Assembly (NCBI RefSeq): GCF_918797505.1
Contig: NC_092793.1
Span: forward strand, 89,540,411 to 89,604,410
Length of the DNA stretch: 64,000 bases
Source of the DNA: Bemisia tabaci
Taxonomy: Eukaryota > Arthropoda > Insecta > Hemiptera > Aleyrodidae
Reading direction: 5' to 3'
Position numbers and translations under genes: made by a program. Of the stretch, positions 15,213 to 38,600 are shown one piece after another. The notes below the pieces were generated by a model. That model was not told where the DNA came from. It worked only from the letters and a program-made list of their open reading frames with translations, and made no database searches. How positions within the stretch are numbered: position 1 is the stretch's first letter; every line of letters starts with the position of its first letter.

Positions 15213-16460
15213 AGTAGTGCAGTTTATTTTAGGAATTAAAAGGAGAAAATCTGCATATTAATTAAAATGATTCGCTACTTGGTGGTATTAAACCAATTTT
15301 TTGCACAGCGAGAACATCTCATGAGTTATTACAGGGCAAGAACCTCCCATAGAGAAAAAAAAGGTGTTTGCATCTTGAGGTTTGTTTAACCTGTGACGTA
15401 GGTCGTCACAACCTGGCCAGCGAAATCCGGAATTCAAAATATAAAAAATGGACCATGATGTTGTCCGATTTTTTTACTTGAATCAACTCATTATATAATT
15501 TCAAGCACTTTTTATAGATAACTTTTTTCCTTAAATTACACCATTTCCAAGAAAATCGACAGGATAAACGTCGCTGTACCGACCTACGTCATCAAATCAT
15601 CAAAAAATTCCAAGATGCCCGAAATGCAAACACCTCCTTTTTTTTCTCTATGAGAACCTCCTGCAGTAACAGGATGCTCTGGCTGTGGCAAATGTGTGCG
15701 GTTTATTTTTACCATGTGACTTGTCATTTTCATTAAGGTGATTCGATGGACGCCATATTTTTTGTCAGAACGACATGCGATATATCGCATTGATTGGTCC
15801 CATTTTTTCAGCTAATTGTCATTTTTCTCATACTTTGAGATCGCAATTCTGTTGCCAGGAGGTTAAAGAATTCACATATCAGTTCTGACAACCACATTCA
15901 ACGTATTAAAGGCGTGGTTTTTACTGACGAAAAATATCGCATTCGAGTGCAGTTTCGATATCAGTGTCGAATGCGATAGTTTTCCTCTAAAAATCACGCC
16001 TTTAAAGCGTCCAGCCCACGTACAAACTGGGGCTCTCAAACTGGCACTAATTCTTCTATTTCTCAGCCATTTCTGCACGGAATGCCTTGAAAATTTCAAG
16101 ATCTGATCTGTGATGTATCCCGAACACATCGGTTACCCTCAAAGATCGTCGGCCCGACGATCTTTGAAAGGCAACAGTCAGCAGTTCCATCGATGAGCCT
16201 TTTTGAGGCCCCTAGTTTGTAGGTGGGCTGGACGCTTTATACGTTGAATGTGGTTGTCAGAATTGATATGTGAATTCTTTGAACTCCTGGTAACAGAATT
16301 GCGATCTCAAAATATGAGAAAAATGACAATTAGCTGAAAAAATGGGACCAATCAATGCGATATATCGCATGTCGTTCTGACAAAAAATATGGCGTCCATC
16401 GAATCACCTTAAGATGCAGATTTTCTCCTTTTTTTCCTAATTCAAACTGCACTATACCTG
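15213..16460. repeat. Outer inverted pair around nested palindromes
   Basis: gtgcagtttattttaggaatt at ~15215 and the following ggagaaaatctgcat are inverted at ~16413-16457 (atgcagattttctcc...aattcaaactgcac). Between them lie 15261-15734, with no gene seen, and the nested foldback. Confidence 0.6.
15735..16411. mobile_element. Nested foldback element
   Basis: 15735-15914 and 16229-16411 are inverted copies (~180 bp, ends AAGGTGATTCGATGGACGCC). Inside are a second hairpin (~15908-16014, aaaggcgtgg.../...cacgccttt), a third inverted pair (16016-16042 with 16209-16236) and, near the centre, a 25-nt perfect palindrome at 16141-16165 with 12-bp arms. Confidence 0.75.
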
Positions 16461-16620: not shown

Positions 16621-17014
16621 GTTTGTGGGTGTAGAATAAATAAAGTAGGTTCCGTATCTTAAAGAAATTTATTTTCTGTATTTGATGAATAAAATACATC
16701 CACCATCGTCTCAGCAATAAGAATGAGTCAATTAACAAGTACATAATATTAAAAATGTATGTTAATTTTCACTCTGTATCTATAGCTTTGTGACTCGTTG
16801 AAAATTTAAAATATGCTTTTAGCACTTAAAAAGTACAATAAAGAATTATAAGTGCAACCAGTAAAGTGAACATTCATTCAACTTACACCCACGCATGTAC
16901 ACAGTTACTCACGAAAATTAATGGAACTAAAAAAGTTCAGGGTTACTTCTAGGTTCCAGGCTAGAGTCAAGGAAGTAAGTAAATATTCCCATTCCAGATT
17001 AATCATATTTCAAT
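16621..17014. other. No gene seen; downstream of bioA
   Basis: Presumed 3' flank of the bio locus on the minus strand. No terminator hairpin of bacterial type was noticed; any polyadenylation site is undetermined. Confidence 0.4.
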
Positions 17015-18311
17015 TCACATCCTTGACTGAAGGTACCTCATAAAGATTTGATAATTTCTGCTACCTATAGTTTTGTAAGCTTCTTCAAGTTCTAAGTCAC
17101 TGATACGGTATGGCGGAAGAAAGTAAATCGTATTTCCCAAAGGTCTGAGTAAAAGTCCTTTCTCTAAAAATTTTGGCTTGAGTACCTGAGCATAGGGAGT
17201 ATCAAAGGCAGCAATCGTTCCAGTGACTCGTATATGATGAATATCAATAAAAGCTATGGAGAGTTTTTCCAGCTCTGTTTTATGAGTCATGTGAATTCTG
17301 TTTAACTTAGCCATTATGCCAGGTTGCGTCAACAACTCCAGAGATGCAATCCCTGCAGCACAGCCTAGAGGATTAGCAGTATAGGAGTGGCCATGAGCAA
17401 ACGCTTTAGTAAAGTGTTCACTTAGAAATGCATCATAGATCCGGTCAGTAGTGGCGGTAACTGCTAATGGTAAGAATCCTCCCGTCAATCCTTTGGATAT
17501 ACAAAGAAAATCAGGAACAAAGTTCACCTGCTCCAAAGCAAAACAAGATCCTGTACGACCGAATCCTGACTTGATTTCATCGAATATAATCAAAATGCCA
17601 TACTGGCGCGTGAGATTAACAGCTCTGGAAACAAATTCTGGACGACACATCCTCATACCACTTGCCCCTTGAACCAATGGCTCCAAAATTAGTGCAGCAA
17701 TTTTATGAGCATCAGCTTGCAAGTGACGCTCTAAAATCCGAAGTGCATGTATTTCTTTATTTTCCACTTGATCATCACCAATCCAAGTTTCCGGAAAAGG
17801 TATCGTAAGAACAGAAAAGAATAATCTGGAGAATAGATCATGAAATCCAGACGTGACTCCTACACTCATTGCTCCAAATGTGTCTCCATGATATGCTCCT
17901 TCAAAACTGAGGAAAACAGTTTTATCTCTTTCACCTTTATTCCACCAGTACTGATGGGAAATTTTCAATGCAACTTCAACAGCTGTAGAACCGTTATCAG
18001 AGAAGAAAAATTTACTCAATTTTTGTGGGAGCAATGCTTTCAATTTTTCACAAAGCGTCACTGCTGGCTCATCCTGGGTGTGAATCCTGCGAATATTACA
18101 TGTTCTAAACGCAGACTTTGTTCATAAATTGCTCCTGCTATTTAAGGATGAGCATGACCGTGCAGCTAGAAATTAAATCCAAGTATGCCCCATCATCCAC
18201 ATCATAAATATATGACCCCTCAGCTCTCTTGACAGCAATTGGTATCGGAGCTGTTTTTCCTTGAGTAAATGGGTGCCACAGGATATTTCTATCTCGCTCT
18301 GCTAGATTCAT
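17015..18311 (-). pseudogene. bioA: BioA, DAPA aminotransferase; 5' part broken
   Basis: BioA is a PLP enzyme (class III aminotransferase) that makes 7,8-diaminopelargonate from KAPA using S-adenosylmethionine. The 348-codon frame 17015-18061 carries NGSTAVEVALK, GAYHGDTFGAMSVG, DEIKSGFGRTG (Asp161), SKGLTGG with the presumed PLP lysine (Lys190) and HGHSYTANPLG. The N-terminal part is present but broken. From ATG 18311 the frame encodes LWHPFTQ and YDVDDGAYLDLISS, then shifts where a conserved WWVN-like segment is absent (apparent ~13-nt loss). Next, a TAA stands where HAHPY is expected, and an apparent 5-nt insertion lies near 18072. The start lies 23 nt inside bioD. Alternatives: assembly errors or an unrecognised intron; a functional copy may exist elsewhere. 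Confidence 0.88.
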
Positions 18312-18927
18312 CTTCATTCATTGCAAGCATTTCTCGCAGGTGAATTGACAAAGGCACTTTCAACAATGCTTCTTTATCAACTTGCTTTAACTGAGGCACT
18401 GTTGCCAGCACTTTCACTCCTCCGTAAAATTCTATCGCCTGAAGATTCTCTTTGTTTTCTGGCCCATTAAGAATTACTCCCAAGATAGGGATATCCCTTC
18501 TTCTAAGGGCCTCTAAACTCAGTAGAGTGTGATTGATAGTACCAAGTGTACTTCTTGCAACCAATATTGTTGCAACTCCAAGTAATTTGATTAAATCCAC
18601 CATTAATGTACTTTTGTTAATTGGTACCAAGATACCTCCAGCACCCTCTATAATTATGTTTTCTTCTTTTGGCAAGTCAATTTGACCAATGTCTATATCA
18701 CTGTTCTCTAGATTTGCAGCTACATGAGGTGATAACGGTTCTTTGAACATGAAAGCTTCCTTGTATATTAGCGTGTTTGTCAAATTACTCACTTGGTTGC
18801 TGTCCGTTCCTTGCACACTTCCAGTTTGAATAGGCTTGAAGTATGCGTAACCAGAATGAAGGCAAAGCCAGCTACAGATAGTTGTCTTACCAACATCAGT
18901 GTCCGTCCCTGTCACAAAAATACGCAT
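18289..18927 (-). CDS. bioD: BioD, dethiobiotin synthetase (bacterial type, intact)
   Basis: BioD closes the ureido ring of biotin's precursor: ATP, CO2 and diaminopelargonate give dethiobiotin. The 212-residue frame is a typical full length. It shows the P loop GTDTDVGKT (residues 7-15), the KPIQTG substrate motif (31-36), LSPHVAA (65-71), EGAGGILVP (94-102) and LGTINHTLLSLEALRRR. I chose the ATG at 18927 because bacterial BioD starts just before the P loop; an in-frame ATG at 18975 would add 16 residues (MLLCNQLRKNYRQSQP) without family resemblance. It stops at 18289-18291, inside the start of bioA. No introns are evident. Flanking DNA is insect repeats, so I infer horizontal transfer rather than contamination. 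Base composition resembles its surroundings. Confidence 0.93.
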   Translation of the reverse strand: MRIFVTGTDTDVGKTTICSWLCLHSGYAYFKPIQTGSVQGTDSNQVSNLTNTLIYKEAFMFKEPLSPHVAANLENSDIDIGQIDLPKEENIIIEGAGGILVPINKSTLMVDLIKLLGVATILVARSTLGTINHTLLSLEALRRRDIPILGVILNGPENKENLQAIEFYGGVKVLATVPQLKQVDKEALLKVPLSIHLREMLAMNEDESSRAR

Positions 18928-19025
18928 TGGCTGAGATTGTCTGTAATTTTTTCGTAGTTGATTGCACAGCAGCAAGAAAATCTAATTTTTTTTTTACATT
19001 TCAATCAACGAAAAAATACGAGCTA

Positions 19026-19032
19026 CTATATA
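19026..19032 (-). promoter_or_regulatory. Possible TATA box upstream of bioD
   Basis: TATATAG on the minus strand lies ~100 nt upstream of the chosen bioD ATG (51 nt upstream of the alternative ATG at 18975). Position alone supports it, and the region is AT-rich. A 5'-UTR 3' splice site (tctcag) just before the ATG is also conceivable. Confidence 0.25.
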
Positions 19033-20659
19033 TTTCTTTGATGTTAGTCACATGGTGTATTGAAAATGGCAAGACTAAGACATGGGTAGGTACGGATCCA
19101 GTTTCAAGTTAAGAGTGTGTTACAGAAATAATTGAGGTAGGTAGTCTTATGGAACTTGAACTATGCAACCCAGAGTGCTAGCCGTTTCATCTCTGAACAA
19201 GTTTCTCTGCTGTTATCAACATGAGGGTGAATGATGCTCTTATGACCTTATCTCAACATTGAGTACCTTTCCATTTAGTTTATCTGACTGGCAGTGATAA
19301 GAATTCAAATGAGACTGCAGCTATACCTAAGTATGGCAGGATTGATATTCTCAGAAAGTAGAATGATTGGGGGAAAATGGAAGTTTTAAAATTCTGTATC
19401 TATTGCCTGTTTGAAAATTTTCAAGTCCTGAATATCTCCATTAGGTTTGAAATGCGATTTTGAGTTGCTAATTATAGGCTATTTACTGATGTTTGTAATT
19501 TTTATTTCCACACTACAAAATATCTTATTGTTGCAAAACTAGAAAAAGTGGAAATGGGGAAAAAGAAAGATATCAGCCAGCGATGATGCTAGAGCGTAGA
19601 CTCGCATACCTATATTCAGTGGTTGACTAGAAGTCCACCTCCTTCACAAAGTGGGAGGCAAAAGTGCTGCCCTCTGTGCACTGTACTAGTGTACTATGTA
19701 ATATGTAACACTTATCTATTTAAAAGGAAAAATTTACTTTCAGAAATTTCTGGAGATTTAGTAATTTTACGTTAGCACTGCTGCAACCCCAGGGTCGCTA
19801 GTGCTTCAACTGAGTGCCAAAAATCTTTTTCATCCCTTCTAGTTACACGATCAGTCAAGTTCAAACCTCCAAGCCAAACGTTTAGCGCTAAATCTCTTTT
19901 TTTCTTCAATTTTTAGTTTGGTGACATTTTCGACATCTCAAAAATTTTGCAACAAAGGGAAAAGTTACGGAGCACATTATGCACGTATTTTTTACGTTCT
20001 TTCCGAAAAAGTACACTGATTTTAGATTAAATTAAGTTTCACAAGTAAACTTGAAATAACCCTTGAAATTGGCAACGATGGACCGTTAGGCTTTTTAAAA
20101 TTCACTGAAAGCTCTTTGTATGGCCAGAAATGAAATGCACGCAGAGAAATACCCGTGGTGCACTCCCACGGAAGGTGTCTAAGGTCAAAAAATATTCAAA
20201 AGAGCTACTCTCAAGTAAAAAAAGGCCGCTAAACACTACATCCCAGTCAATTTTCACATCGTGAAAATCCAGGTACAACTACACTTTTTAGATATGTTGT
20301 AAATATGGGTGAGAGCTGTTACATACGTCAATATAAAAGTCCTACCCCACTTTCTTGAACCTTAGGCGTGATTTATCAAATTTTTGCCATTTTGGGCTCT
20401 TGGGAAAGATTTTCCTCGAAAATTCGGCAACGTGGAGAAAATTTTCACTGAATGTTTTTTCTTCCTTTTTTTGCGTTCTTTCCAAACACGTAGGTACTCG
20501 GTTTATAGTTTAAATTGAATTCTACGTGCAAATAACTCTTGCTAAAAGAATAAAACTGATGAAAAAGTCAACAAAAATAATTATTTTTCAATGCCGGGAT
20601 TAAGGGTTGGAGGCGCTGCTGCACCTTCGCACGGACTCAGTTCGGTAAAATATTTGGCA
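19033..20659. other. No gene seen; weak ~500-bp duplication
   Basis: No credible coding frame. 19880-20100 and 20400-20560 share loosely similar blocks (cgttctttcc...gtac, ttaaattgaattct-like), suggesting an old tandem duplication. Confidence 0.4.
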
Positions 20660-20898: not shown

Positions 20899-23325
20899 CT
20901 ATGCCGGGTCAAGGACAGGGCAAATTTCAGAGATGCTACGTATCAAAGTGCCAGAGCTGGTCTTGATTGATGCTACTCTAGGTATGTTGTCATTACCTGG
21001 GTGAAGCTTTATAATTCTGCCCATTCTCCAAAGCAGAGGAGGCAAGAACTTATCTTTTAATATCACTAATGTATTGACCCTAATATTGGTTTGTTTTACC
21101 CATTTACATCTTTGTTGCTGCTGATGCAAATATTCCATTGACCAACGTTTCCAAAATTTTTCATATAATTTTTTAATTAACTTCCAATTTGTGACCGGCG
21201 AAGTTGGATATTCTGCTTTAGTATTTAATATATTGGTCATTGCAGAACCAATCAAGAAGTGTCCAGGAGTTAGTGGAGAGAGGTCATAAGGATCGTTTGA
21301 CATTGGCCAAAGAGGTCTAGAATTCAGGATTGCTTCAATTTTGTTAAGGATTGTTGAGAATTCTTCGAAATGAAGTACGTTTGTTGTTACAGTTTTGGAA
21401 AAATGATGTTTAAAACTTTTGACACAACTCTCTCATAAACCACCAAAATTAGGAGAGTAACTAGGGATGAACTTCCATTCAACCTGTTTCTCTTGCAAGT
21501 AATTTAAAATTTCAGCTGGAAGGTTATTTTCAAACAACAGGGGTTGCCTAAGATTATTTCTAGCACCAATAAACGTTTTTGCTTGATCCGAATATATTGT
21601 TAGAGGAATTCCGCGTCTAGATACATATCTTTGAAGTGCTAATAGGAATGAGTATGTACGAGGGTCATCCAAAAAGTAAGTTTCCCTACTTTGTATCTTC
21701 CGAACGAAAAGAGATAAATCAAATCGGTAAAAAGTCACATATTATGCATACTCTAAGCTTTAAAACAAGCTCAAGTTTTTAAAAATCAGCCAAGGGGTTC
21801 GCGAGTAAACTTAATTTTACTGAGACAACCTCCTGTCGCCGCGTGCCCACCTCCGGGGTCAGGATGCGCGGAGAGTCGATTATAGAAGACTCGAGTTATC
21901 GCCTCTATACATCACGTCAACAAGAAATGTTAAAGTTTTCATTGAGTAACTACCTTAATATTAGTTAGTAGTAGTTACCTTACTTTTTGACGTAGTCTCC
22001 ACATCTAATTGACATTTTTGGTATCATCACAGCAGCTTCTTGACGCCCTCCGCGTGGAAGATCTCGTCTTGGCTCCGAAACTAGTCATTGACAGCGATCT
22101 GCACTCCCAAATCAGTTGCTTTGCGTAGGGAAATTTTCCCCCAACCCTTCAAACTCTCGTACTTTAGCTTCATGTGACTTTTATTTGTTCCTGAGCGGAA
22201 AAACTTCCACGATGGAAGCGATTTTCAACCGATTCAGAGGTACAGATCGCTGTCAATGACTGATTTCAGAGTCAAGGCGAAAGCTTCTACGCGGAAGGCA
22301 TCAAGAAGCTGCTATGATGATACCAGAAATATCAAAAAAGATGTGGAGACTATGTCAAAACGTAAGGTAAGGTCTACTCAATGAAAACATTAAAATTCCT
22401 TGTTGATGTGATACATAGAGGCGATAACCCGAGTCTTCTATAATCGACTCTCCGCGCATCCTGACCCCGGAGGTGGGCACGCGGCGACAGGAGGTTGTCT
22501 CAGTAAAAATAAGTTTACTCGCGAACCCCTTGACCGATTTTCAAAAACTTGAGCTTGTTTTGAAGCTTAAAGTATGCTTAATATGTGACTTTTTACCGAT
22601 TTGATTTATCTCTTTTCGTTCGGAAGATACAAGGTAGGGAAACTTACTTTTTGGATGACCCTCGTAGTTAGATTAAATGTTATCTCCAAATGAACAGCTT
22701 TTGTAGCAAAGCATATAAATACAACAATATACAATAAATTAACAGCTATTTTGTTAGGTTACACGATCTTAATTTAGCATTATTTAACTCCTCACAAGTT
22801 AAGTGCCCAGTTCTTTTATTACTCCTTTGTAAGTTCTGCTTCAAATTTTCAATAAATCTAAGACAGTACGAGGTTACACGTAGTAACTTATTAAAACTTG
22901 AATATCTCAAAAATAAAAACATTGGCTCACAATTAACCGCACTCAAACAAACAATATCAACGTTTTGTGGCTCTACGAATATCCTAGGTGCAGCATTGGA
23001 AACAGCTTCAGCACTTCTAATGCATGGAGGACCAAACCACCATAAAGGGGATTCTCCCAGTTTTTTAGCATTGAATCCTCTAGTAAGAAGATCAGCAGGG
23101 TTCTCAGCTGAGGGTATGTAACCCCAGTTGTCAGTACATAGGTATTTTCTCATCAGTTCAACTCTACAGGATATAAATCCGTCTGTATTTGTGTTAACAT
23201 TTTTAATCCAACTTAGCGCAAATGTTGCTGTCAGACCACATCAATACATAATTTATATTTACATCTAATATACTTAAAATACGATACACTAGTTCAGCAA
23301 GCAACACCGCATAATTCCAATTGAA
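20899..23325 (-). pseudogene. BEL/Pao retrotransposon pol fragment
   Basis: Minus-strand pieces in order: RNase H region (from ~23320, with WSDSN, then 23153-22746 with ENPADLLTRG); the integrase core, whose KAVHLE motif lies just above the mariner insertion at 22664 and whose WKFIPSYSPNFGG follows below it; and the pol C-terminal domain (DUF5641-like) at 21303-20899 with SPLTPGHFLIG, WRMGRI and IRSISEICPV. Damage: the mariner insertion, a TGA at 21433-21435 where the family has Trp, frame breaks near 22750 and 23153, and loss of gag, protease and most of the RT upstream, where the Penelope-like fragment begins. Inactive. Confidence 0.85.
21659..22664. mobile_element. Palindromic mariner derivative in the BEL integrase
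   Basis: Ends CGAGGGTCATCCAAAAAGTA and its complement are flanked by TA on both sides (21657-21658, 22665-22666), as for mariner elements. Arms of ~450 bp (to ~22110 and from ~22235) are inverted copies. The inner arm translates to FYAEGIKKLL then, after stops, GDYV, resembling the C-terminal end of mariner transposase; the N-terminal and catalytic parts are missing. Thus a 1.0-kb foldback built from two 3' ends. Confidence 0.82.
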
Positions 23326-23337
23326 GAAAAGGACTTA

Positions 23338-24027
23338 CAAAGATTATACCACCTATCAATCAGCACTCTTTGGTAAAAAGCTCTGATGATAGGCAAAGCT
23401 AAGCTTATCGACGTCAGCGCGGGCATTACAAACTTGGTCCCTCATCTTGAGGATGTGGACCATTTCTAAGAGACACCGCGAAAAATCGTGCTTCTCAGTG
23501 GCCAAAATCCTAGCCCCTTCGAAGTCAAACCGATGATTTAAATTTTCTTCGTGCCGATGTAATGCAGTCTTTCCATTTTTATTGTATCGATGAGAATTCG
23601 GCCGCTTTTTAAGTACCCACTTCGTCTGACCAATGTACCCAATTTCGCAGTCCTGGCACTTGATATGGTAGACTACTCCCGGTACCTGTTCATCCTTAAG
23701 CTTAGATTTTAATTTAGACAAAAGAAAATTTAAATTATTATACAGCTTATGAACCACAGAGAAACCATAAGATTTTAAAATCCCAGCAAATACTTCAGAT
23801 AAAAATGGTACATATGGCAAAGAAATTAACTTCCCAAAATCCAGATTTCGTTGTTTGGGAGGCACAGTTTGTTTCCTTTTACTCGATGTTAAAACCTTGT
23901 GAAACTCTTGGTCAATAAGAGATGGAGGGTAGCAATTTTCGATTAACAAACGTTTTCCCGTTTCCATCACCTCATTGTGATACTTTGCATCACTGAGACG
24001 AATACAATAAAAATGAAAAGACTGCAT
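23338..24027 (-). pseudogene. Penelope-like element 3' part with GIY-YIG endonuclease
   Basis: The 223-codon frame 23356-24027 ends in a GIY-YIG domain: GVVYHIKCQDC, then GYIGQT and LKKRPNSHRYN, an LNHRFDFEGARIL block and LLEMVHI. The upstream ~100 residues resemble the thumb/linker part that precedes this domain in Penelope-like elements, which nick DNA with GIY-YIG and use an unusual reverse transcriptase. The RT itself is missing: the frame runs into an inverted partial copy at ~24020, so the first residues are probably chance. It abuts the BEL fragment on its other side. Confidence 0.85.
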
Positions 24028-33423: not shown

Positions 33424-35662
33424 ATGAGTAAGAAAGAGGACGATAACGCCAAATCTCTCTTAAACCTCTCCTCGCAGGAGCTGAACGAGGAAAAAGAGAG
33501 ATTAGGAAAGAAGCTTGACGGCCGGCATGGAGATGAAGATGAAAGAATGGAATGAGCATGTCAACAAATCCCCCCCTCCCGCCACCGCCAAGAAGAAAGA
33601 TGAATACGAACAATTCCTGCATGAAATGAAAGTTGTGGAAACAGCACGGATAGAAATCGAGAAGGAATTAAACAGGAGAAAATAGGCTACAGAAAGTGAT
33701 GAAGAGAAATGGAAAGCCGAAGAAGAAAAAGTAGAAGCAACCCTTAAGGAACACTTGGACACCCTGGACATTATTAGGAACATGATTTACGATTAGGATA
33801 GTGACAGCGGAAATAAGGAGATCAAAATCGGAAGGAAAACCTACAGCAAAGGAAATGACACACGGAAGAATTTAATGAACACACTGGCATACAAAAAGGA
33901 GCAAATCAAACTTGCAAAAGCGGAACTGGATAGGATAAGGAAGAAAACGGAAACCAAAGGACATGAGGAACAAATTAGCAAAATCTTAGGCACAGAAGAA
34001 ACGGAAATGGAAGTGGAGATCATCAATGAACTCAAGAGAAGAAGAAAAGAAGCCCTCGACACATCAATGGAGGATATGGATGACGATGACTTGGTTTTTC
34101 TGAGGAAATCTCAAGGTCTGAAGAGAGTGAGAACAGCGACGTCTAAAGGAGCGGGAATTGGAAAACAATCAGTTTCTAGAGGAAGCTCACCAACTGTGAA
34201 GCAAGCTTACAGGAGCAGGTGTAACTCACTGCCAACAAGGAACAGTGGCCTCAAGAAAAGAGGCGAAAAAGAAACTGAAGGAACTACCACGGAAACTCAG
34301 AAAAACATGGAACTAAAGGACCTGTTGAATGCCCTTTCGACTCAAATCAAAGAGCAAATGACCACAATGAAGAAAATAAAGGAAGATAATGAAAAGAACC
34401 ACCAGAAACTTCGAGAGGAGAATGCGAAAACTATGGAAACCTTCCTCCAACAATTGAAAGAATTGAAGGAAAACCCAAAAAATCTAACCGAAATAGGAAA
34501 ATTAGAGAAGGAGCTCCGAGATAGTAAAGAGGAGCTAAAGAAAATGAAAACAGAGAACGAAAAATTGACCAAAACAACTAAGGAGATTAAAGAAGAATTA
34601 AAAAAGCTTAAGGACAACCTCGACAAAAACGGAAAATCGCAGAAAGAAGAGAATAAGAAAACTCAGGAAAAACTGGATAAAATCGGCAAAAATATGATAA
34701 CGGAAAAAACGGTAGAAAAAGTGCTTAAAGAAACAAAGAGCAAACTTGAGATGAAGGAAACAAGGAACAAGGGTGAAAAACAGTTTAAAGAAAATATAAT
34801 CAACAGGAATGACAACATGACTAAAGTAAAGGCAACCTTGGAGGGAAAAACCGGAGAAGAAACAAAGAAAAAAGTCAACAGTGTGCTAGAAAAATATCCA
34901 GAATCGACTATAACTGCAAAAACGTTTTCGCAAGCAGTTATTCTAAATGGCCCGACTGAAGAGATAAGGAAAGTGGAAGAGGAACTAAAGCAAGAGGAAA
35001 TGAAAATACAGCCTGTCAGACCAACAGGAACTGTTTTCCGGATAAATTATGTAGATGAGGACATATCAACCGAACGTATTCCCTATCATATATACATCAA
35101 GAACATGAAAGGTATTGCGGGATGGACCGAAGAAAGAGTTAGAGAGTCTATTACTGTTTTTGCAGACAGAAAACGAACTTGGACCCGAAATGAAAGAGAA
35201 GATGTAACGAGATGGATCCTGATCAGGGCAAAAAACGGACTGGGAAGATTTCTGGCTACTAAATCAAAGATTTTTATAGGATTCAGTAACTGCCCCATCT
35301 TCCCTACAGCGGTGGTTACCCCCTGTGGGAAATGCGGATCGGTGTATCACAGCACCAAATCATGCGAAGAGAAGGAAATGTGTTGGTCGTGCGGCAGTAC
35401 AGAACATAAAAACAAGGACTGTAAGGACAGGAAAATGAAGAAATGCATAAACTGTGAGCGAGAAGGAAAGAAGGAAACAAATCATCACATGTTCGACGAA
35501 GGAAAATGCATTATATACAGGAAGGCAATGGAGAGGGCAAGGAGGCTGGCAGGCATGTTTGAAAAACCCGAGGAAGAATTAAGCACTTCAAAGGAGGGCA
35601 GTTTCCAGTATCAACGTATCAACACAGGCATGGAGACTGATGACACATCATATTCATGCTAG
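33424..35662 (+). pseudogene. LINE ORF1, coiled-coil protein with CCHC zinc knuckles
   Basis: Gag-like RNA-binding protein of the LINE. Translation begins at ATG 33424 (MSKKEDDNAKSLLNLSSQEL), changes frame between ~33505 and 33550, and then meets TAG at 33683-33685 and 33794-33796 before the long 595-codon open frame from 33875. That frame has a very Lys/Glu-rich coiled coil (about residues 130-300) and three zinc-knuckle-like clusters near the end: CGKCGSVYHSTKSC, CWSCGSTEHKNKDC and CINCEREGKK...C (about residues 486-550). The stop TAG overlaps the ATG of ORF2. Confidence 0.87.
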
Positions 35663-38600
35663 GAAACAACAACAATTGTAGAAGAGAAGACTCCATTTTC
35701 TCATCGAATCGTTTCGAAATCTTAAACACAGACGCTACTAACAGAAAACAGAATGATGAACTTATTTGTCAACACACGAGACCCATTTCTAAATGTATGA
35801 TTTGTTTCGATAGTAGAATTTATGAAGATTTAAATAGTATCTGGTGCATGCATAATCTTAAGGTGAAAAAATGCAAAAAATGCAAAGACGCCTTTCTACC
35901 GCCATTAGTATTGCCAGGTGGAAGATTGATAAGACCTTTATTGACACCTCACATTTGGTCAAATATCAGCAATAATATAGGTGACGCTGATAATATTAGA
36001 ACTCATTATAACAGTAAACACGACTCGGATCAAAGTGACGAAGACGACACGTTCCTAACAGCGAGAGATAAATTAATAAATAAAAAAGTAGATATAAAGG
36101 AAATACTGGTCTCCCACGCTCCCCCAAATAACACTTTGAACTTAACACGCTTTCAATCTGAAAATGCTGATTCAGAAAAAATATTCAAGCATAACAATAA
36201 TATAAATGATTTCGGACTTTCTCTTCTACTTGGCAATGTAAATACGAATCCTTTATCACAAGAATTACTTAAAGATATTGTAAATAAACGCAAACTAGGA
36301 GGTTGCATCATCACAGAACCAAATGCAAATAAGGCAAATTATGATAATTATTACTCAAGTATAGATCAATGGGTAACTGCTAGTACAAATAGAAGTCTTA
36401 TAGGTTCAATCAAAAATTGGGAAGCCGGCCCTTTCTACATCATTTTTGAATGGCGAGAAATCACAATTATAGGCATTTATCTTTCACCTAATAATAATAA
36501 CGTAGAACTTAAGAAAGCACTTTTCATTTTAGAAACCAGAATAAAAAGAATAAAGGGATCTTTTTTAATATTAGGAGATTTTAATGGCAGATCACCCGCC
36601 TGGGGTGATTTAAAATATAATCCAAGAGGCAGATTGATAGAAGATTGGATTTATGAAAATGAGTTAGTAATTCATAACAACCATGAAAAATTTATCCCCA
36701 CCTTTATCAACTCAAGAGGATATCAATCGATTCCAGATCTAGTTATCTCAAGTGCCGATCTTACAGAGAGAGTCAAAATTGAAGTCTTAGATTCTTATGT
36801 GCTTTCTGAACACAGAAGTATAATAGTTAATATCATAAATGAAGATGCACAGAAACATCCCACTGCTATAACTAAGAATTCAGGATGGTACATAAATAAA
36901 GAAAAATTGCCGGATTTTGTATAAACAGTTAAGGAACTTACCTCCAAATATTGCACAGATACCGAATTAACCCCCTTTTTATGTGAAAAAATTATTACAG
37001 AAGCCTCAGATGTGATTTTTGTGAAAAAGTCTTCAACTACTCCCCGTACTCCTTTATACTGGTGGAGCAAAGAAATAGGAAAAATCAGGAAAAATTGTCA
37101 ACAGCTTAGACGTAAAATTATGGAATTAAGAAGAAAAAAATTACCTCTTCTACGCAAACTAGCAGAACTAGAATCACTGAAAAAAGAACTCACGACTAAA
37201 ATAAAAGATTCAAAGAAGAAGAAATATGTAGAATTACTTAACGAATTGGATACCGACATATGGGGTAAAGGCTATAAAATATTTAGACACCGCCTAAAAA
37301 ATCCTAGAGCACATGACGAATGCACTCTCTCAGAAGAAGAACTATTAAATGAAATAACAAAACTCTTCCCAGACCACAATGAAGTGGTCTGGAGCGATAC
37401 CAAAGTAGACAAATCAGAAATTCATGAAATAACCTTAGAAGAGATGCGCCTAGCTATGAAAAAGCTCAAAAATGGAAAAGCCCCGGGCCCGGACAATATA
37501 TTACCACTAATTACTAAATTATTCATAGACACCAACTTAAAGAAATTCACTAATATGTGTAATGTTCTTCTGAGAGAGGGCGTTTTTCCTGAAGCCTGGA
37601 AAGAAGCAAAATTGATCCTATTCCCTAAAAATAAACCAGGTGCTCAAAAAAGTTATAGACCTATATGTTCAATTAAAACGCTGTCGAAAATCTTCGAACA
37701 CATTATCTCAATGAGGCTTAATAATTCTTTCAATTTTGATCTGAGACAACATGGATTTAGGAAAGGAAAGTCAACCATCACAGCCATGGAATCAGTTAAA
37801 CGAATTTATGACTATCATATGAGGAAACCACTAGGCAAAAGAGGACTCCTTGTTTAGTTTCATTAGACATTAAAAATGCATTTAATAGTATTAGTTGGAT
37901 TGACTTTATCACTACCTTATGTAAAAGAAATGTACCCCCCTATCTTATTAGAATTATGAAATCATATTTATCGAATAGATTTTTAGTGTTCCCCGAATTT
38001 AAAGTTAAGCTGAACTCCGGGGGAGCACAGGGGAGTATCCTTGGCCCCTTGATATTTTTAATTATCTTTGATGAAATTGTTAGATTAAGACTTAGTAACG
38101 GTACAGAGAAAAATGTTTACGCAGACGACACGCTCTTAGCCTTTGAATCTGAAAATAGAACCTCTCTTTTAACAGAAACAGAAATCACCACTAAAAGAAT
38201 GAAAAAGCGATTAAAAAAGAAAAATCTGAGTCTCGAGGAGAGCAAAACAGAAGCATTAATATTGGCCGGTAAAAAAGAGAATTCTAAAGCCAAAATAAAA
38301 GTAGATGAAACTGAAATCGAAACCAAAGAAACACTTAAATACCTGGGCTTCTATCTCACAAAAAATTTAAATTTTAATAAACACTTGGAAATGACTTGTA
38401 AAAAATTAAATAAAACTGCCAATTATTATAGTAGAATTCTACCTAACACGTTCGGTCCCACTTTTCATAAAAGAAAAATAATATTTCATTCCCTCTTATC
38501 AATCCTCTTTTACGGCATAACTATTTGGATAACTGCTACACAATGGAAAAATCTATAAAACTAATTGAAACTTCTATTCGACCCTTAAAAAAGACTTTAA

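Follow-up and report, generated by a model that had tools for sequence, protein, structure and literature searches.

Can two overlapping genes of a bacterial operon both be at work in an insect chromosome? The question is raised by the window (the whole 64,000-nucleotide stretch of Bemisia tabaci DNA analysed here, on a contig of 92,276,804 bases), in which bioD and bioA sequences of bacterial type follow each other on one strand and share 23 bases:

18289..18927, minus strand: bioD, intact, a dethiobiotin synthase gene of bacterial origin (212 aa; P-loop GTDTDVGKT present)
18289..18311, minus strand: overlap of bioD and bioA, 23 nt, with the same 23 bases in both whitefly copies of the pair
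17010..18311, minus strand: bioA pseudogene, from the homologue of the BioA ATG at 18311 to the normal stop position (17012-17010), including a remnant ORF of 348 aa

The window bioD is a single, intronless open frame on the minus strand, from the ATG at 18927 to the stop at 18289. Its product scored 133 bits against the NCBIfam BioD equivalog TIGR00347 (cut-off 83.3); Pfam and the resemblance to solved dethiobiotin synthetases also identified it as a BioD. The P-loop residues G13, K14 and T15, which are invariant across an 18-row BioD alignment, are all present in this copy.

The condition of bioA is different. The ATG at 18311 is homologous to the BioA start, and the frame that it opens closes after 57 codons. 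Compared with the intact bioA found elsewhere in the genome (the sister copy, described below), the window copy shows the following lesions:

18164..18165, minus strand: 13-bp deletion relative to the sister, shifting the frame and leading to its closure 57 codons after the ATG
18142..18144, minus strand: stop in the ancestral bioA frame, AAA to TAA, residue 61
18073..18077, minus strand: 5 extra bases relative to the sister
17065..17068, minus strand: 4 extra bases relative to the sister
17038..17040, minus strand: stop in the ancestral bioA frame, GGA to TGA, residue 426
17020..17020, minus strand: 1 extra base relative to the sister

A tblastn alignment of the intact whitefly BioA to the window came out as four successive pieces that use three frames (residues 1-54, 54-82, 84-419 and 418-432). 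The longest ORF left (17015-18061, 348 aa) opens with GTG rather than ATG, its start corresponding to roughly residue 87 of a normal BioA of 434 aa. This remnant, with its N-terminal part missing, scored 405.1 bits against the DAPA aminotransferase (BioA) model TIGR00508 (cut-off 405), and the window has no full-length bioA frame above that cut-off. The window bioA is a pseudogene and the 348-aa frame its remnant. The sequence-only reading had described two intronless minus-strand genes with the bioA ATG inside bioD: the 23-nt overlap and the intronless bioD stand, whereas bioA is no open gene but four pieces. With the bioA frame broken and two further stops in it, the accompanying idea that both genes function here fails, and the striking claim of a working overlapping operon in the window has to be corrected.

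A BioD family search of the 610-Mb genome identified only the window and a second place at C1:60.03 Mb. For the class III aminotransferase family there were 24 places; the intact BioA at 60.03 Mb ranked first and the remnant in the window second. At this sister locus, bioA (C1:60029945-60031249, minus strand) is intact, encodes 434 aa and scored 547.9 bits by TIGR00508, above the cut-off. The sister bioD is a fossil with an open frame of 140 codons (C1:60031443-60031865, minus strand); it lacks 2 bases at two places, has 4 extra bases at one, and has serine in place of the P-loop G13. This broken 140-aa piece still exceeds the TIGR00347 cut-off (89.2 bits), so the TIGR00347 score alone is no proof of function. 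Neither locus has the two intact frames of a working two-gene operon; each carries one broken gene. The two loci share the following sequence:

16760..19526: duplicated block, 2,805 aligned bases (~2.8 kb) with 89.6% identity to C1:60.03 Mb, in the same orientation
19527..19710: stretch missing from the sister copy, with relatives at C2:73.07 Mb (86%) and C1:36.79 Mb (77%)
19711..19805: further stretch of the duplicated block, less similar (72% identity)

The stretch at 19527-19710 is probably a repeat inserted after the duplication. The common 3′ flank of the block matched the genome at the two loci only. The common 5′ flank did likewise in a genome search that passes over very common words; the exceptions were the inserted repeat and, for its outer end, short weak matches. 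When the window was compared with a 50-kb region around the sister, the duplicated block was the sole long match. The copies lie 29.5 Mb apart on one contig, and a reading as two haplotypes rather than two loci was rejected.

Differences between the copies were compared with the residues of relatives, 69 for BioD (including two insect proteins) and 60 for BioA. The intact copy had the commoner residue at 24 of 30 BioD differences and the broken copy at 6; among the BioA differences that could be scored, the intact copy had it at 24 of 35 and the broken copy at 8, with three ties, and two more differences were the stops. At sites conserved in at least 90% of relatives, the intact copy kept the residue in all ten cases for BioD and in five of six for BioA, the sixth BioA site fitting neither copy. 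The branch lengths since duplication in the trees agree in direction, being 0 (intact) and 0.12 (broken) for BioD and 0.022 and 0.11 for BioA. Substitutions are thus biased toward the broken genes, with some changes still on the intact side.

Pairwise dN/dS between the copies was 0.52 (0.29-1.01) for bioD and 0.21 (0.12-0.33) for bioA, and the bioD value was not above the bioA value in 0.85% of 2,000 bootstraps. To convert these ratios into dead time, the dead copy was taken as neutral and the living copy was given an omega of 0.1, a choice with which the results shift. Under this assumed omega, about nine tenths of the period after duplication would have passed with the sister bioD dead (interval 0.42 to >1), against roughly a quarter with the window bioA dead (interval 0.06-0.50). 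The sister bioD was probably lost before the window bioA, with times that are not firm, given two dN/dS values, wide intervals and an assumed omega. The reading that we favour, with a probability of roughly 0.93, is that one chromosome carries two decayed copies of the pair, and that the whitefly likely obtains BioD from the window only and BioA from the sister only.

Three other explanations were weighed. The first is that both loci are dead or dying, that biotin now comes from Hamiltonella, and that the intact frames are just slower to decay. Low transcript levels of bioA (8.85 FPKM in bacteriocytes and 5.36 in the whole body) and the absence of bioD from the ten expressed transferred genes given by Luan et al. 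(2015) speak for it. Against it, exactly one intact frame remains for each enzyme and the changes are concentrated in the other copy. Functional tests of whitefly bioA, bioB and bioD were reportedly made by Ren et al. in 2020. A later paper also cites the use of whitefly BioA, BioB and BioD as compensating for missing biotin synthesis. General decay of both loci is, in our judgement, very improbable.

A working bacterial-style overlapping pair with both genes translated in the insect is a little less probable again. It could draw on the intact overlap and on the BioA-like frame still open over 348 aa, but the early closure of bioA, its scatter over three frames and its internal stops count against it, as do the presence of an intact bioA elsewhere in the genome and the description of bioA as truncated by Chen et al. 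(PMC5157087).

The surroundings of the block bear on the remaining alternative, an artefact of assembly. The following elements lie near it:

15733-16412: foldback palindrome (arms of 177 nt, 97% complementary) just outside the 3′ edge of the duplicated block
20899-24027, minus strand: retroelement-like gene pieces, matching DUF5641 (20899-21303) and, weakly, GIY-YIG (23356-24027)
35656-38558: ORFs for an endonuclease-reverse transcriptase and a reverse transcriptase, a retroelement of non-LTR type

A Pfam scan of the flanking ORFs (n = 7) gave no match for two of the seven, which lie between the DUF5641 and GIY-YIG pieces, and one reverse-transcriptase match was below the cut-off. An ORF with cysteine-histidine knuckles was also seen at 33875-35662. 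Bacterial contamination or collapsed symbiont reads, which might be thought of in a species that harbours symbionts, including a Cardinium with the same genes, are the least probable explanation of all, since the proteins of that Cardinium (cBtQ1) are merely 62-66% identical to the whitefly ones, and since the genes sit among insect repeats on a 92-Mb contig and at two places with different lesions. The earlier judgement that contamination is unlikely, made from the nearby insect repeats, is borne out by the length of the contig and by the different lesions and different insect surroundings of the two copies.

The nearest named bacterial proteins were those of Wolbachia (BioD, 70-72% identity; BioA, 74%). 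A BioA with 75% identity, deposited under the spider Trichonephila clavata and located on a contig of 40 kb, sits inside the Wolbachia clade; either the spider assembly contains Wolbachia reads or the gene was transferred recently. A concatenated BioD and BioA tree was built from 19 organisms, hand-picked where both proteins matched one organism or contig. The whitefly fell within a 13-row clade of Wolbachia, Mesenet, Cardinium and whitefly (support 98/98); its position next to seven Wolbachia had less support (85/81). A phylogeny of BioD and BioA against endosymbionts had been suggested as a check by the sequence-only reading, and in it the whitefly genes are nested among bacterial relatives. 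Nesting among bacteria in the trees, together with the insect DNA around the genes, identifies them as horizontally transferred genes of the insect chromosome. Cardinium cBtQ1 alone as the closest donor was rejected (p-AU 0.003). A grouping of the whitefly with cBtQ1 and two divergent Wolbachia was not rejected (p = 0.10). From these trees, the donor would be some member of the Wolbachia/Mesenet/Cardinium cassette lineage.

Gene order was surveyed in bacteria at 80 loci, kept from 579 that encode a relative. At 52 of the 80, bioA follows bioD on the same strand, in 47 cases within 50 nt; in the others, bioA precedes bioD (6), lies on the opposite strand (4) or is absent from the examined stretch (18). 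Among bioD-first loci with a start codon at the aligned first BioA residue (n = 13), seven have an overlap of 4-20 nt. The overlap is 10 nt in Cardinium cBtQ1 and 14 nt in the Wolbachia of Fragariocoptes. That the 23 bases are unchanged between the whitefly copies is, at ~8% divergence, not unusual by itself. The occurrence of bioD-then-bioA overlaps in living bacteria supports the proposal, already made from the letters of the window, of a single transfer of an operon segment that kept its junction; the whitefly overlap would have been inherited from the bacterial operon in this co-transfer.

The biotin cassette of Wolbachia and Cardinium comprises bioA, bioD, bioC, bioH, bioF and bioB (PMC12560110). 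The whitefly loci resemble it in that bioA comes after bioD on the same strand and the overlap is short; unlike it, they hold the bioD-bioA piece only, with an overlap of 23 nt, and whitefly bioB stands alone on another chromosome. The sole genome match of the biotin synthase C-terminal domain (BATS) was at C2:9421217-9421444, on a different chromosome from bioD and bioA. No other cassette gene was recognised in four flank pieces of the loci searched with 54 ORFs from 6 of the 80 bacterial loci, which gave 11 matches with E of 1 or less. The best of these (E 0.002) was a piece of Cardinium BioA in the upstream flank of the sister; it was treated as a chance match because the whitefly's own BioA had no match there at E of 10 or less.

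Taken in order, a symbiont of the cassette lineage would first have passed a bioD-bioA segment, overlapping junction included, to the whitefly lineage. Transcripts of bioA occur in both B. tabaci and T. vaporariorum (Luan et al.), and the transfer would therefore be old. Later, a block of ~3 kb would have been duplicated within the chromosome, and the resulting redundancy would have allowed bioD to decay at the sister, probably first, and bioA at the window, probably later. What is left is a clean example of complementary loss after duplication: an operon acquired from bacteria came apart as two genes of the insect.

The question of how a second cistron could be translated from an insect mRNA does not arise at the window, where it had been posed, for the surviving bioD is the first cistron. 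As the window bioA is dead, the question concerns the sister locus instead, and the ancestor that had a single copy; in the present genome it properly belongs at C1:60.03 Mb, where an intact bioA follows a dead bioD. There, the open frame of bioA spans 436 codons, and its own ATG is the sole one near the normal start. From the start of bioD to that of bioA there are seven AUGs. Reinitiation would not be a clean route to BioA at this locus: although 193 nt separate the end of the broken bioD frame from the ATG of bioA, the start of bioA is overlapped by an AUG frame of 10 codons. In the ancestor, neither gene can yet have been broken at the time of the block's duplication. We tentatively suggest, as a possibility held at less than even odds, that the locus before duplication ran both genes across the 23-nt overlap and yielded two enzymes; that duplication turned it into two one-gene loci, with the sister bioD dying first and the window bioA later; and that BioA is still produced at the sister, downstream of a fossil bioD holding seven AUGs, through a promoter arisen inside the fossil or through unusual translation.

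The arrangement of two loci with complementary loss has been known since 2016. Chen et al. (2016) described for MEAM1 a co-transfer of bioA and bioD in two adjacent sets, one with a truncated bioA (Bta00841) and one with a truncated bioD (Bta01938), and proposed duplication and pseudogenization (PMC5157087). Matched by description and not by coordinates, the loci described here would be those gene numbers. The species, the two-locus arrangement, the complementary truncation and the explanation are alike in the two accounts; the origin is given as ‘Cardinium-allied’ there (PMC5157087) and as the wider Wolbachia/Mesenet/Cardinium clade here. Because Cardinium biotin genes have been exchanged with Wolbachia (PMC12560110), the two placements agree at the level of the lineage. 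A 2024 paper on BioD of the cassava whitefly gives Bta01938 and Bta00840 as its MEAM1 orthologues and Wolbachia as its origin. No further account of the two-locus arrangement was found in a limited literature search. Added here are the list of lesions, the extent of the duplication, the inheritance of the overlap, the donor test and the probable order of loss.

Scale insects offer a comparison, as they too are sap-feeding hemipterans with a bacterial bioD (PMC10158165). Their BioD proteins, on a 27-Mb contig in Kerria lacca and a 21-Mb contig in Parthenolecanium corni, group apart from the whitefly gene on a separate branch. A single origin of the three insect BioDs, as one clade, was weakly rejected (AU p = 0.046). 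The separate grouping has been reported before, and independent transfers were likewise inferred (PMC10158165). Within B. tabaci, panB-panC is likewise a case of two adjacent bacterial vitamin genes moved together, but it became one fused gene with introns, whereas bioD-bioA was duplicated and lost one gene per copy (PMC5157087). In the present assembly, pantoate ligase was found on C7 in two pieces 334 bases apart, which fits the intron-bearing panB-panC gene of Chen et al. (PMC5157087).
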